DNA from: Saprospiraceae bacterium
GTDB lineage: Bacteria; Bacteroidota; Bacteroidia; Chitinophagales; Saprospiraceae
Direction: 5' to 3'
Assembly: GCA_028284395.1 (NCBI GenBank)
Contig: JANQRV010000339.1
Location: forward strand, 1 to 64,000
DNA: 64,000 nucleotides
Position numbers and translations under genes: made by a program. Under the pieces are notes generated by a model, which ran no database searches, was not told where the DNA came from, and was given only the letters and a program-made list of their open reading frames with translations. Positions 56,997 to 61,502 of the stretch are shown here, in pieces; position 1 is the first letter of the stretch; the number at the start of each line of letters is the position of its first letter.

Positions 56997-57911
56997 ATGG
57001 ATAAATTAGGTGTTATTGATCTTGGTACAAACACTTTCCACTTGCTGATCGCTACGGTGGCAGTAGAAGGAGAGATCAAGACTTGTTACCGCGAACGTCA
57101 TTTCGTGAAATTAGCAGAAGCCGGAATTGAAGAGATCGGTGCCCAGCCTTTTCAGCGAGGATTAGAGGCCATGCAAAAATTTCGGAAAGCCATCGATTTG
57201 TATCAAGTTCGGCAGGTGAAGGCGATTGGGACGGCAGCTCTTAGAACCGCCAGGAACGGTCAGCAATTTATCGACACGATCAATAAGGCAACGGGGATTC
57301 GCGTCCAGCTTATTGATGGTGATGAGGAGGCACGACTCATTTATCTGGGGGTAAGGCAAGCCATCCCATTTGCAGAACGCAACTACTTAATAATGGACAT
57401 TGGTGGTGGGAGTGTCGAATTCATGATCGCTAATAACGACAGCCTCAAATGGTACCAAAGTTTTCCCATTGGTGTAGCGGTCCTATATAGATTATTTCAT
57501 CGGCATGAGCCGATTTTGCCCAATGATATTGATGCTCTAAATGACTTTTTGGAAGAACGCCTCCTACCTCTGCGCAAGGAGATATTAAAGTATCAGCCTA
57601 CTACTTTGGTTGGCGCTGCAGGAACCTTTGATGTATTGGAGAATGTATTGGAAGTAAAGTCAATTTCGCCAAATGGTTCGATGGTAGCGATTAAAGACTT
57701 TAGAGCTCTCTACAACATCATCTTGCCAATGGATCAAGTAAGTCGATTGAATTCAGACAAAATACCGGATTCGAGAGCAGATATGATTGTGGTTGCCTTG
57801 ATCTTGATTCATGCCGTACTTTCTTACGGAGATTTTCAACAGATCATTGTTTCTTCCTATGCCATGAAAGAGGGTGTTCTTAGAGAGCTACAAGAAAATG
57901 GATTTAGCTAG
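56997..57911 (+). CDS. Ppx/GppA family exopolyphosphatase/pppGpp phosphatase
   Basis: The 304-residue protein is of the Ppx/GppA family: MDKLGVIDLGTNTFHLLIA (phosphate-binding loop 1), IGTAALRTARNG, LIDGDEEARLIYLGV and IMDIGGGSVEFMI (loop 2). The length is that of the short single-domain forms. It may hydrolyse polyphosphate or pppGpp; the two activities cannot be separated here. It precedes the metal permease gene by 86 bases. Confidence 0.9.
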   Translation: MDKLGVIDLGTNTFHLLIATVAVEGEIKTCYRERHFVKLAEAGIEEIGAQPFQRGLEAMQKFRKAIDLYQVRQVKAIGTAALRTARNGQQFIDTINKATGIRVQLIDGDEEARLIYLGVRQAIPFAERNYLIMDIGGGSVEFMIANNDSLKWYQSFPIGVAVLYRLFHRHEPILPNDIDALNDFLEERLLPLRKEILKYQPTTLVGAAGTFDVLENVLEVKSISPNGSMVAIKDFRALYNIILPMDQVSRLNSDKIPDSRADMIVVALILIHAVLSYGDFQQIIVSSYAMKEGVLRELQENGFS

Positions 57912-57924
57912 ATAAAAAATAATT

Positions 57925-57940
57925 TTTAGATTAGTCTAAA
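57925..57940. promoter_or_regulatory. Candidate metal-repressor operator TTTAGA-TTAG-TCTAAA
   Basis: TTTAGA (57925-57930) and TCTAAA (57935-57940) are perfect reverse complements with a 4-base centre, embedded in TTAGATTAGTCTAA, which matches 13 of the first 14 to 19 positions pattern of DtxR-type boxes (TTAGGTTAGCCTAA...) at most places. It ends 22 bases upstream of the -7 box, covering the -33 region of the downstream gene, which encodes a DtxR/MntR domain. Confidence 0.6.
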
Positions 57941-57961: not shown

Positions 57962-57969
57962 TACTTTTG
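57962..57969 (+). promoter_or_regulatory. -7 box TACTTTTG of the permease-repressor fusion gene
   Basis: Exact TAnnTTTG match 28 bases before the ATG at 57998. The -33 region falls inside the inverted repeat at 57925-57940, so repressor binding there would block the promoter. Confidence 0.6.
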
Positions 57970-57997: not shown

Positions 57998-59491
57998 ATG
58001 GCTGAATATATTGAAATATTCCAATCGGAATGGGCGATTCGTGCACTGATAGCATCCATACTGGTGGGGCTGATTTGTGGGGTGATAGGGTGTTTTATTG
58101 TTTTGAGGAATATGGCTTTGATTGGCGATGCTTTATCGCATGCCATTTTACCAGGTGTTGTCTTTGCGTATGTCATTGTCGGAGGCTATAGTGTATTGGG
58201 GTTTTTTGTCGGATCGGCAATTGCAGGTTTGTTGGCTGCCATCATGATGACCTGGATTCAACAAAATTCGACGACCAAAGACGATGCCGCGATTGGAATC
58301 GTCTTTACAGCCCTATTCTCGATTGGGGTGATGGGGATTTCCTGGATTAGCAGGAATCAAGGTGTTCACCTGGATTTGAAGGACTTTCTCTTCGGTAATG
58401 TATTGGGCGTATCCGATGAAGATCTGATCTTGACTTCAGTGATTGCGGGTTACGTTCTTCTGAGCATTGCTACCTTTTACCGATATTTGTTTATCTCTAC
58501 CTTTCAGCCCGTTATTGCGCAAACAATGGGGATTTCTGTCAAAACCATTCACTACTTTTTGATGTTGTTATTGTCATTTGCAGTCGTGGCTTCTTTGCGT
58601 ACGGTAGGGGTCATACTGGTGGTAGCGATGTTGATCACGCCGGCATCTACGGCATTGTTGCTTTCAAACAGGTTGCGGGTCGTGCTCATTCTTTCGGGGC
58701 TTTTGGGGGTGCTTTCTGCTATTTTAGGTTTGGTGTTGTCGGTGGTGTTTAATACGACTCCCGGACCCGCCATGGCAGTCGTTGCTGCTCTCCTATATCT
58801 ATTGGCATTGCTGTTCTCACCAGGTAAAGGGCTGATCTCCAGGAACATTCAAAAGTATCGTCTGAATCGGAAAATCATGATCGAAGACACCCTCAAACAA
58901 GCGTTCCGATTGCAGCAATCCGGAAATCTGAAATTAATTTCATTGCGAGAAAATTTGAGCTATTCGGGGAGAAAATTGAATCATATGATCAAGCAATTGA
59001 GGGCAAAGGGTTGGATGTTGAAGGATCGGTTGACTTTGACGGAGGATGGATCGGATGAAGCCAGGAGATTGGTTCGTGCACACCGACTCTGGGAAACCTA
59101 CCAGGTGGAAAAACTGGGGCTTTCGGCAGAGCATATTCACGATGAGGCGGAAAAATATGAGCATTTCCTTACGGAAGAGATACTAGATGAGGTAGATCAG
59201 GAGCTTGGATATCCGACGAAGGACCCACATGGTTCACCGATTCCCCGTCGAATTGGAATGCCGAGTTTTTCGCTGCTCAATTTGGAGTTTAAGCAGCCAG
59301 CTAAAATTGCCGATGACCAGATCAGCGAAAATGTAGCTTCTCATCTTTGGAAATTGGGGCTACTACCCGACTCGCCGCTTTCGGTCTTGTCGGTCGACAA
59401 CCTGGAGGTAGTTATAGAGAGTAATGGAAAACAATATAAACTGCCCGTTCAACTGGCTAGGATGGTCAATGTAGAGCGGCAGAGGCTTTAA
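57998..59491 (+). CDS. Metal ABC transporter permease fused to a DtxR/MntR-type repressor and FeoA-like tail
   Basis: The 497-residue protein has a ZnuB/MntB-like ABC-3 permease (1-280, about eight helices, GVIGCFIVLRNMALIGDALSHAILPG and LITPASTALLLSNR), a winged helix (about 293-345), a DtxR dimerisation/metal region (LVRAHRLWETYQVEKLGLSAEH) with ligand candidates H362, E366, H381, E385, E388 and H389, and an SH3/FeoA-like tail (415-497). E385 sits where DtxR has cysteine, which is MntR-like. Such a fusion is known from Chlamydia (YtgCR). No ATPase or binding-protein gene lies beside it. A DtxR-like inverted repeat covers its promoter. Confidence 0.9.
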   Translation: MAEYIEIFQSEWAIRALIASILVGLICGVIGCFIVLRNMALIGDALSHAILPGVVFAYVIVGGYSVLGFFVGSAIAGLLAAIMMTWIQQNSTTKDDAAIGIVFTALFSIGVMGISWISRNQGVHLDLKDFLFGNVLGVSDEDLILTSVIAGYVLLSIATFYRYLFISTFQPVIAQTMGISVKTIHYFLMLLLSFAVVASLRTVGVILVVAMLITPASTALLLSNRLRVVLILSGLLGVLSAILGLVLSVVFNTTPGPAMAVVAALLYLLALLFSPGKGLISRNIQKYRLNRKIMIEDTLKQAFRLQQSGNLKLISLRENLSYSGRKLNHMIKQLRAKGWMLKDRLTLTEDGSDEARRLVRAHRLWETYQVEKLGLSAEHIHDEAEKYEHFLTEEILDEVDQELGYPTKDPHGSPIPRRIGMPSFSLLNLEFKQPAKIADDQISENVASHLWKLGLLPDSPLSVLSVDNLEVVIESNGKQYKLPVQLARMVNVERQRL

Positions 59492-59502: not shown

Positions 59503-59949
59503 ATGCAAAGAGTTTCCTCCAATGCGACCCTTTTTCTAAAGTTGTTTATCCCAACTTTTTGGATCGTATTCTTCGGTGCATTTACGGTAATGACTTTGCT
59601 GTCCCGAACAGCTTACTTCGGACAATTTCCAGCAGTGCCGTTTAAAATTGGGACCCTGTTGTTCTATCTCAGTGGGTTAGCGATGTTCTACTTCACTTTA
59701 CTGAAGTTGAAACGCGTAGAAATGGATGACAAGTTTGTTTATGTGACGAACTATTTCAAACATTTTCGTTATCCCATGCACAATGTTGAGAAGATAGAAG
59801 ACAGTGATATTGGCTTTTTCCAAACGGCCAGCATCCGATTAAAAACGCCGGGCCATTTCGGTAGCCGCATCGTTTTTGTAGTGAGCCGGCCCAACTACGA
59901 ACATTTCTGGAAGACGCATCCTGAATTGATGGCCGCGCTGAAAAATTAA
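59503..59949 (+). CDS. Small membrane protein of unknown function
   Basis: The 148-residue protein has two membrane helices (about 12-34, KLFIPTFWIVFFGAFTVMTLL, and 45-65, IGTLLFYLSGLAMFYFTLL) and a soluble C-terminal part with VEMDDKFVYVTNYFKHFRYPMHNVEKIEDSDIGFF and FGSRIVFVVSRPNYEHFWKTHPEL, reminiscent of bacterial PH-domain membrane proteins. It begins 11 bases after the permease-repressor gene and is probably cotranscribed. Its stop shares TTAA with porX. Confidence 0.72.
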   Translation: MQRVSSNATLFLKLFIPTFWIVFFGAFTVMTLLSRTAYFGQFPAVPFKIGTLLFYLSGLAMFYFTLLKLKRVEMDDKFVYVTNYFKHFRYPMHNVEKIEDSDIGFFQTASIRLKTPGHFGSRIVFVVSRPNYEHFWKTHPELMAALKN

Positions 59950-61502
59950 CCTTTTGAACGCAGGGTGACCACTGGACAAATGATTTCTTCCAGTGAAATG
60001 CCTCCATGCTGAAAGGTATTCTTATAATAATTGTTGTAGTAGTTGTAATTGTTTGGATAGAGAAAAAACTTGTCTTCTTTGGCAAAGATGAAAGTACTAC
60101 TGACATTGGGTCTTGGCAGCACGGCATCTTCGGGTTTTCGCACTTCCAGGACATCCCTTCTTTCGTATTGCAGATTCCTACCCACCTTGTACCGAAGGTT
60201 GGTTGTCGTTTCGCGATCTCCCACTACTTTCGATGGTTGATTGACGCGTATGGTGCCGTGATCAGTTGTAACGACAAGCCGCACCTCTCTTTCTGACACG
60301 CGTTTGAGTGCCTCCCACAAGGGAGAATTCATGAACCAGGACTTGGTGAGGGAACGATAGGCCTTTTCATCGCCAGCCAACTCTTTCAAGACTTCCATTT
60401 CGGTGCGTGCGTGCGAAAGCATATCGATGAAGTTGTAGACGATAGCCGTCAGGTCGTTATTCAGATAATTCAGTACGTTGTCCTGAAGTTGTTTGGCGTG
60501 GTTGACATTTGTAACCTTAATGTAATCCGATCGAACGGCTTTGCGAAAAGTGCGACTGATCTGAGCATCGAACAGGTCATGTTCATGCAAATTTTTTCCT
60601 CCTTCGTCATTGTCATTCTTCCACCATTCCCGGTGTCTTTTCTGTATCTCTAGTGGCATTAAGCCGGCGAAAATGGCATTCCTGCTGTATTGGGTAGAAG
60701 TAGGTAATATGCTGTAGAAGAAATCCTCTTCTTCTATTCGGAAGAAATCTGAAATCGTTGGCTCGATTACCTTCCATTGGTCGTAGCGCAAATTGTCGAG
60801 CAACAATAAAATGGTTGGTACTTCATCATTGACCTGCGGAAATACCTTGCTTCTCAGCAAATTGTTCGACATAACGGGGCCGTTGCCGGTTTGTACCCAA
60901 TCCAGGTAATTGCGAACAATAAATTTTGAAAATTCCGAATTGGCTTCACTTTTCTGCATGGAGAGGATATCGGCCATCTCGACGGAATTGGATTCATCGA
61001 TTTTTATCTCCCAAGCGATTATCTTTTTATAAATATCGGCCCATTCTTCATAATCTAGACCGCTATTGATTTCGGTGAAAATTTGTCTGAATTCCTGCTG
61101 ATAATCCGACGAAGTTTTTTCGCGAACCAATCGTTTGTTATCTACTATTTTTTTGATTGTCAATAGGATTTGATGGGGGTTGACGGGCTTTATCAGATAG
61201 TCGCTTATCTGTGACCCGATGGCTTCTTCCATCACATTTTCTTCCTCATTCTTGGTGATCATTACGACGGGCAGGTGCGGATTGATGTCTTTGATCTTCG
61301 CCAGGGTTTCCAAGCCCGTTATGCCCGGCATGCTTTCATCCAGGAAAACGATGTCGATGTCGTTGTTTTCTTCGAACTCTTCCAGGGCGTCATAGCCATT
61401 TGAAACGGTGATGACATCGTATCCCTTTTTTTCAAGGAATATTAATTGGGGCTTGAGCAAATCGATTTCATCATCTGCCCAGAGTATTCTTATTTTATCC
61501 AT
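59946..61502 (-). CDS. porX: PorX: response regulator with PglZ-type phosphatase domain
   Basis: The 518-residue protein has a CheY-like receiver (1-120; LWADDEIDLLKPQ, phosphorylation site D55 in FLDESMPG, lysine in VVMITKNEEE) and a C-terminal PglZ/alkaline phosphatase-superfamily domain (LLLDNLRYDQW, NFIDMLSHART, VTTDHGTIRVN). In Porphyromonas gingivalis, PorX with PorY controls type IX secretion genes, and its phosphatase domain acts on cyclic oligonucleotides. This fits the T9SS cargo proteins encoded here. A good -7 box lies 30 bases upstream; PorY is not in the window. Confidence 0.95.
   Translation of the reverse strand: MDKIRILWADDEIDLLKPQLIFLEKKGYDVITVSNGYDALEEFEENNDIDIVFLDESMPGITGLETLAKIKDINPHLPVVMITKNEEENVMEEAIGSQISDYLIKPVNPHQILLTIKKIVDNKRLVREKTSSDYQQEFRQIFTEINSGLDYEEWADIYKKIIAWEIKIDESNSVEMADILSMQKSEANSEFSKFIVRNYLDWVQTGNGPVMSNNLLRSKVFPQVNDEVPTILLLLDNLRYDQWKVIEPTISDFFRIEEEDFFYSILPTSTQYSRNAIFAGLMPLEIQKRHREWWKNDNDEGGKNLHEHDLFDAQISRTFRKAVRSDYIKVTNVNHAKQLQDNVLNYLNNDLTAIVYNFIDMLSHARTEMEVLKELAGDEKAYRSLTKSWFMNSPLWEALKRVSEREVRLVVTTDHGTIRVNQPSKVVGDRETTTNLRYKVGRNLQYERRDVLEVRKPEDAVLPRPNVSSTFIFAKEDKFFLYPNNYNYYNNYYKNTFQHGGISLEEIICPVVTLRSKG

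Follow-up and report, generated by a model that had tools for sequence, protein, structure and literature searches.

The 64,000-nucleotide window analysed here, from a Saprospiraceae genome, contains a gene that joins an ABC-3 metal permease to a domain of the DtxR family of metal-dependent repressors and to an SH3/FeoA-like tail (Table 1), raising two questions: (i) which transporter the permease serves, and (ii) whether its C-terminal part acts on DNA or on the transporter that carries it. The nearest published precedent is YtgCR of Chlamydia trachomatis, in which cleavage releases the C-terminal YtgR part as a transcriptional repressor (PMC7755916, PMC5599777); the initial annotation of the locus had rightly pointed to it, and had proposed a DNA-binding repressor that is either held at the membrane or released from it.

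Table 1. Coordinates of the features discussed; positions without a locus prefix refer to the window.
Feature	Coordinates	Strand	Basis
Ppx/GppA phosphatase gene, just 5' of the fused permease	56997..57911		
Predicted DtxR/MntR-type operator TTTAGATTAGTCTAAA, 57 bp 5' of the ATG	57925..57940	.	Sequence match
Promoter element TACTTTTG, matching the Bacteroidota -7 consensus	57962..57969	+	Consensus match
Fusion of ABC-3 metal permease, DtxR-derived metal domain and SH3/FeoA-like tail, 497 aa (ATG 57998, stop 59491)	57998..59491	+	Single ORF
ABC-3 permease domain, residues 11-273	58028..58816	+	Pfam; alignment to PsaC 7kyo
Continuous helix, residues 279-307, from just past the last TM helix into DtxR helix 1	58832..58918	+	AlphaFold
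Decayed winged-helix region, residues 295-350 (variable recognition helix, shortened wing)	58880..59047	+	Alignment, Pfam
Metal-binding and dimerisation domain (Fe_dep_repr_C), residues 348-417, with D297 added from helix 1	59039..59248	+	Pfam
SH3/FeoA-like tail, about residues 425-494	59270..59479	+	Pfam, AlphaFold
ORF joining a response regulator receiver domain and a PglZ domain	59946..61502	-	
Second free DtxR, 218 aa, contig C483	L043:6410-7066	-	
DtxR'-FeoA-FeoA gene	L195:1584-2621	+	
DtxR'-FeoA-FeoA gene	L196:1223-2284	+	
DtxR'-FeoA-FeoA gene	L197:1894-2997	+	
DtxR'-FeoA-FeoA gene	L198:905-1957	-	
DtxR'-FeoA-FeoA gene	L199:1096-2145	-	
DtxR'-FeoA-FeoA gene	L200:1155-2168	+	
DtxR'-FeoA-FeoA gene	L201:1169-2215	-	

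Architecture of the fused permease

The reading frame runs without internal stop or frame break, and an interruption between residues 280 and 295, which would have made two genes of one, was looked for and is absent. The search for homologues of the same architecture, suggested in the initial annotation, found the fusion as one ORF in 66 genomes, this genome included, and it is therefore not a sequencing join; a broken gene or an assembly artefact is thereby ruled out. The fusion is kept in about two thirds of 100 genomes sampled from the family Saprospiraceae, with one assembly per genus.

Pfam places PF00950 (ABC-3) on the permease part (2e-71), with a full-length match in all 66 relatives, and Fe_dep_repr_C on the C-terminal part (1e-24), followed by a sub-threshold FeoA match (residues 427-494, 0.002). 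The permease residues D44, H48 and D96 are invariant in the 66 sequences, align to PsaC (7kyo), and are the counterparts of the DHD triad on the metal path of Bacillus anthracis MntC (PMC8487065). The SH3/FeoA tail is missing in about 14 of the 66 relatives, in which the C-terminal end lies near residue 420; as the tail-less sequences sit in scattered branches of the permease tree, the tail was apparently lost on many occasions, with the metal core always kept.

The AlphaFold model, a monomer computed with 66 family members, has high confidence along almost the entire chain (pLDDT 89.1, pTM 0.81). Foldseek matches its permease part to PsaBC (7kyp, E 6e-17), with about 40% identity to PsaC, and the C-terminal remainder to SloR, ScaR, IdeR and DtxR, so the three-part architecture first proposed, including a C-terminal half with a DtxR fold, agrees with the model. 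The last TM helix (residues 255-273) is followed by a short turn with a conserved P275 and an invariant G278, and then by the continuous helix listed in Table 1, modelled with a pLDDT of 91-97. The model shows no disordered linker between permease and DtxR domain, the family alignment displays no conserved cleavage motif in this segment, where only P275 and G278 are conserved, and M294, which might serve as an internal start, varies among relatives.

Partner genes elsewhere in the genome

The initial annotation described an orphan permease, and one part of that description stands: the window contains no gene for an ATPase or a binding protein next to the fused permease. The other part does not, since the partner ATPase maps to a separate contig (C573), with the genes in the order dtxR, binding protein and ATPase and no permease behind them. 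The window gene encodes the sole ABC-3 permease of the 11.15-Mb genome, and contig C573 carries its sole ZnuA/TroA-type binding protein. The assembly is fragmented (653 contigs, 6% estimated contamination); the split layout recurs in many relatives, among them one assembled as a single contig (G061), in which the two loci lie 2.8 Mb apart in sequence coordinates.

The association holds across the family. All 64 genomes examined with the fused permease have exactly one true ABC-3 permease, namely the fused one, three further weak matches being probably FecCD-like, to judge from their scores; the binding protein is present in 62 of these 64 genomes vs 2 of the 25 family members that do not have the fusion (Fisher 7e-17). 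In six of the 64 (G003, G005, G022, G036, G070 and G098), falling in three places of the permease tree, the fused permease directly follows the binding-protein and ATPase genes, and dtxR heads this linked operon in five; in G036, no dtxR was found in the sequence stretch examined around the operon. The C573 operon and the co-occurrence in relatives rule out an orphan relic devoid of partners.

The binding protein and the ATPase appear as a single ORF at L192/L077 (G065) and L146 (G036), of 590 and 530 aa, respectively. Such a fusion with a TM segment between its two parts would be topologically possible, since binding proteins encoded as separate ORFs have a hydrophobic, TM-like helix at the C-terminus.

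Sequence comparison of the three components also bears on function and substrate. The ATPase core encoded on C573 is kept (Walker A GQNGAGKS, LSGGQQQ and LLLDEP) and, together with the intact DHD triad of the permease, suggests that the importer should be functional. The permease is nearest to PsaC, the binding protein closest to MntC/MntA and the ATPase closest to Mn/Fe ATPase models, and manganese is therefore the favoured metal, with iron possible and zinc less likely. At its third ligand position the binding protein has His, the residue also seen in zinc and TroA-type proteins, in place of the Glu of Synechocystis MntC. The best explanation is that the cell has a single importer of the MntABC/TroABC type, whose permease is the product of the window gene and whose ATPase, binding protein and repressor are encoded elsewhere.

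Concerning the immediate neighbourhood, 37 of the 73 loci searched, at least half of the relatives, have a Ppx/GppA phosphatase gene immediately 5' of the fused gene, usually with the DtxR operator in the gap. This conserved neighbourhood raises the question of a link between polyphosphate and metal homeostasis. Downstream, a 148-aa ORF has no homologue in the 73 loci and is ruled out as a member of the system. Further downstream, a two-component protein with the receiver domain joined to a PglZ (alkaline-phosphatase-like) domain is devoid of an evident DNA-binding output.

A common operator

The operator TTTAGATTAGTCTAAA, which is close to the textbook DtxR box, precedes both the fused permease gene and, as an identical 16-mer, the C573 operon. 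These are the only two exact copies in the genome, among 17 sites of the form TTTAGN6CTAAA. Across relatives, the exact TTTAGN6CTAAA motif lies upstream of the permease in 49 of 60 split-layout genomes (55 of 60 with at most one mismatch) and before 46 of 52 dtxR operons, at a chance rate, from the genome-wide motif frequency, of about 4e-4 per upstream region. It is missing in front of all six permease genes that lie in the operon, as expected if these are read from the operon promoter. A promoter element of the Bacteroidota -7 type (consensus TAnnTTTG) lies between the operator and the start codon of the window gene. The 15 other sites are treated as chance occurrences, because a backwards control pattern is commoner in the genome than the motif itself and because, among the seven whose surroundings were read, none lies before an obvious metal gene and several fall inside ORFs.

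The importer is thus split into two transcription units with one common predicted operator, an intact free DtxR being encoded in the other unit. As the operator is common to both, the two units would most simply be under one regulator, for which the free DtxR is the obvious candidate. The genome encodes a second free DtxR, on contig C483, preceded by a different palindrome, TTAGATAACACTAA.

A conserved metal site and a decayed DNA-reading surface

The fused and free DtxR proteins of the same 52 genomes were aligned and compared position by position. The metal-binding and dimerisation domain is well preserved in both groups: (i) PF02742 is detected in 66/66 fused and 52/52 free proteins; (ii) the identity over residues 379-418 is 0.65 in the fused and 0.72 in the free proteins; and (iii) the ligands H362, E366, H381, E388 and H389, together with D297 of helix 1, which belongs to the ligand set of the fused domain, are present in all 52 fused proteins, position 385 being Glu in 45 and Asp in seven. 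The ligand candidates named in the initial annotation are therefore essentially invariant, and its assignment of an MntR-like Glu to the position of DtxR Cys102 was correct. It had also read a lysine at the position of MntR Glu11 (K300) as a sign that metal binding may differ; this residue is uninformative on metal specificity, since the free DtxRs carry Lys there as well (52/52).

The winged-helix fold is still modelled in the fused domain, whereas the surface that would read DNA has diverged. The recognition helix (residues 322-336) shows a mean pairwise identity of 0.22 in the fused proteins vs 0.74 in the free DtxRs, and an entropy of 2.70 vs 0.70 bits; its core, [ST][VI][TSN], is found in 1 of 52 fused vs 52 of 52 free proteins, and the wing is shortened in 46 of the 52 fused proteins. 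PF01325, the N-terminal DNA-binding domain, is detected in two of the 66 fused proteins, the window protein not being one of them, vs all 52 free ones. By sequence, the C-terminal domain of the permease is thus a DtxR derivative that keeps the whole metal site and has lost the conserved recognition helix and part of the wing. A variable helix is in itself no proof that all DNA binding is lost; the recognition helix of the fused domain is the more basic one (net charge +3.2 vs +0.4), and some contact with DNA or with the membrane is possible. The DNA-binding repressor first envisaged, tethered or released, nevertheless appears unlikely, given the decay of recognition helix and wing and a free DtxR that would explain the operator.

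Comparison with known systems

Several known systems resemble the fused permease in part. YtgCR likewise combines an ABC-3 permease and a DtxR-type domain, in this order and with the metal ligands kept, in one polypeptide; however, it is encoded in ytgABCD together with a second permease, whereas the fused gene is usually unlinked and provides the only permease, and the cleaved DNA-binding repressor of YtgCR contrasts with a separate intact DtxR, a decayed fused winged helix and often a FeoA tail. The architecture is common to both and the DNA-binding part, the defining feature compared here, is not intact; the fusion is therefore, as far as tested, not filed as a YtgCR-type repressor but as an ABC importer of metal whose permease carries a putative regulatory domain derived from DtxR. 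The PsaBCA, MntABC and TroABCD importers share with it a related permease with the DHD triad, an MntC/MntA-like binding protein and a Mn/Fe-like ATPase, but the DtxR-derived cytosolic domain on the permease, the distribution of the genes over two loci and the additional C-terminal TM-like helix of the binding protein set the system apart. Compared to DtxR, MntR and IdeR, the fused domain displays the same fold, the same metal-site residues and often an SH3/FeoA tail, although it is attached to the membrane, with an unconserved recognition helix, a shortened wing and no PF01325 match in the window protein.

The fused permease resembles MetNI and ModBC in that an ABC importer carries a cytosolic domain, here one that may bind the substrate, whose two copies would pair in the homodimer; in those transporters the domain sits on the ATPase and has another fold, whereas here it sits on the permease and derives from DtxR. 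The accessible part of a 2023 review lists MetNI and ModABC, with their regulatory domains, as substrate-inhibited ABC importers (PMC10710835).

Related domains in other importer loci of Bacteroidota

Other Bacteroidota families encode a permease-DtxR fusion of 30-37% identity within a binding-protein and ATPase operon, mostly followed by a second permease, a gene layout equal to that of YtgABCD. In this class PF02742 is detected in 21/21 sequences and PF01325 in 0/21, and the ligands are conserved. In addition, 10 of the 100 family genomes encode a protein of 340-370 aa comprising a TM-like helix, a decayed DtxR domain and two FeoA domains (DtxR'-FeoA-FeoA), in which D297 and the ligands are conserved in 10/10, with E or D at position 385. 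In the loci read at length its neighbour is a gene for the FeoB G-domain, the membrane part of FeoB being encoded separately; two loci have a free DtxR gene in front, and eight of the 10 genomes do not have the ABC system.

In a tree of DtxR domains the free, permease-fused, YtgC-like and Feo-type domains each form one group, the free group splitting off with an SH-aLRT of 98, and the tree leaves the branching order among the other three unsettled. The YtgC-like and Feo-type parallels may share an origin with the fused permease, and are thus not fully independent evidence. A tentative generalisation, to which we give somewhat less than an even chance, is that DtxR domains whose DNA-reading surface was lost have been recruited as metal sensors on two unrelated importers, (i) fused to ABC-3 permeases and (ii) as a membrane-anchored DtxR'-FeoA-FeoA subunit of FeoB. 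Uptake of metal would in that case be controlled after translation, by a domain whose family also provides the transcriptional repressor of the importer.

Proposed mode of action

The reading we favour, at a probability of roughly 0.6, is that the fused domain is a metal sensor on the transporter that acts on transport activity by feedback inhibition, the free DtxR being the transcriptional repressor. When metal is plentiful, the free DtxR would repress both transcription units, and the fused domain, sensing the same cytosolic pool, would act on the transporter and not on DNA. Cytosolic Mn2+ (or Fe2+) would fill the site, the two copies of the domain in the permease homodimer would change their association under the membrane, and the rigid helix 279-307 would relay this change to the region where the ATPase docks and to the last TM helix, slowing transport. 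This would be a form of substrate trans-inhibition, comparable to that of MetNI/ModBC, with a sensor that is unrelated to theirs and sits on the permease; FeoA acting on FeoB is a further precedent (PMC8980893). Such feedback would set a fast control of activity atop the slow control of transcription. The least certain step is that the effect is inhibition rather than activation: inhibition, activation and mere metal delivery are indistinguishable from sequence, and conserved ligands alone are not proof of metal binding.

Sequestration of a regulator by a transporter is known from Mlc-PtsG and MalT-MalK, and the fused domain might analogously pair with the free DtxR and hold or release it at the membrane according to the transport state. 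The two proteins share the dimerisation fold and, in the genomes that encode both, seem to be under common regulation, yet their metal and dimer domains differ at group-conserved positions (361 A/K, 398 E/R, 413 S/D, and W377 in the free form only); self-pairing is therefore favoured, and sequestration is considered improbable. Alternatively, the domain might be a metal acceptor or an assembly module, catching metal at the permease exit or stabilising the dimer with no regulatory role, for which ligand conservation and a dimerisation fold would suffice and with which repeated loss of the tail, the core being retained, is in keeping. In DtxR-type proteins, the helix-1 residue equivalent to D297 couples metal binding to helix movement. 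The fused domain keeps the full sensor set including D297, for which a mere buffer would have no need, and a domain of this kind also occurs beside a FeoB system, so that this alternative, too, is held to be unlikely.

A third and about equally unlikely alternative, cleavage as in YtgCR to give a soluble metal-dependent repressor of importer genes, draws on the common domain order, the intact metal site and the persisting winged-helix fold, and is countered by an unconserved recognition helix with PF01325 lost in 64 of 66 proteins, by the partner operon's own intact free DtxR, whose recognition helix is conserved and which would explain the operator, by the continuous helix with no cleavage motif in place of a linker, and by the unconserved M294.

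Biological implications

As far as the literature search reached, activity-level feedback on Mn/Fe ABC importers has no known sensor domain, and no paper linking DtxR and "transinhibition" was found within the literature accessible to it. If feedback by the fused domain holds, a sensor carried by a transporter would have come from a family of transcription factors, and proteins that annotation would label, by their C-terminus, as iron-dependent repressors would not be repressors. The fused permease would also provide a test case for rereading other permease-DtxR fusions, including whether YtgCR does both jobs.
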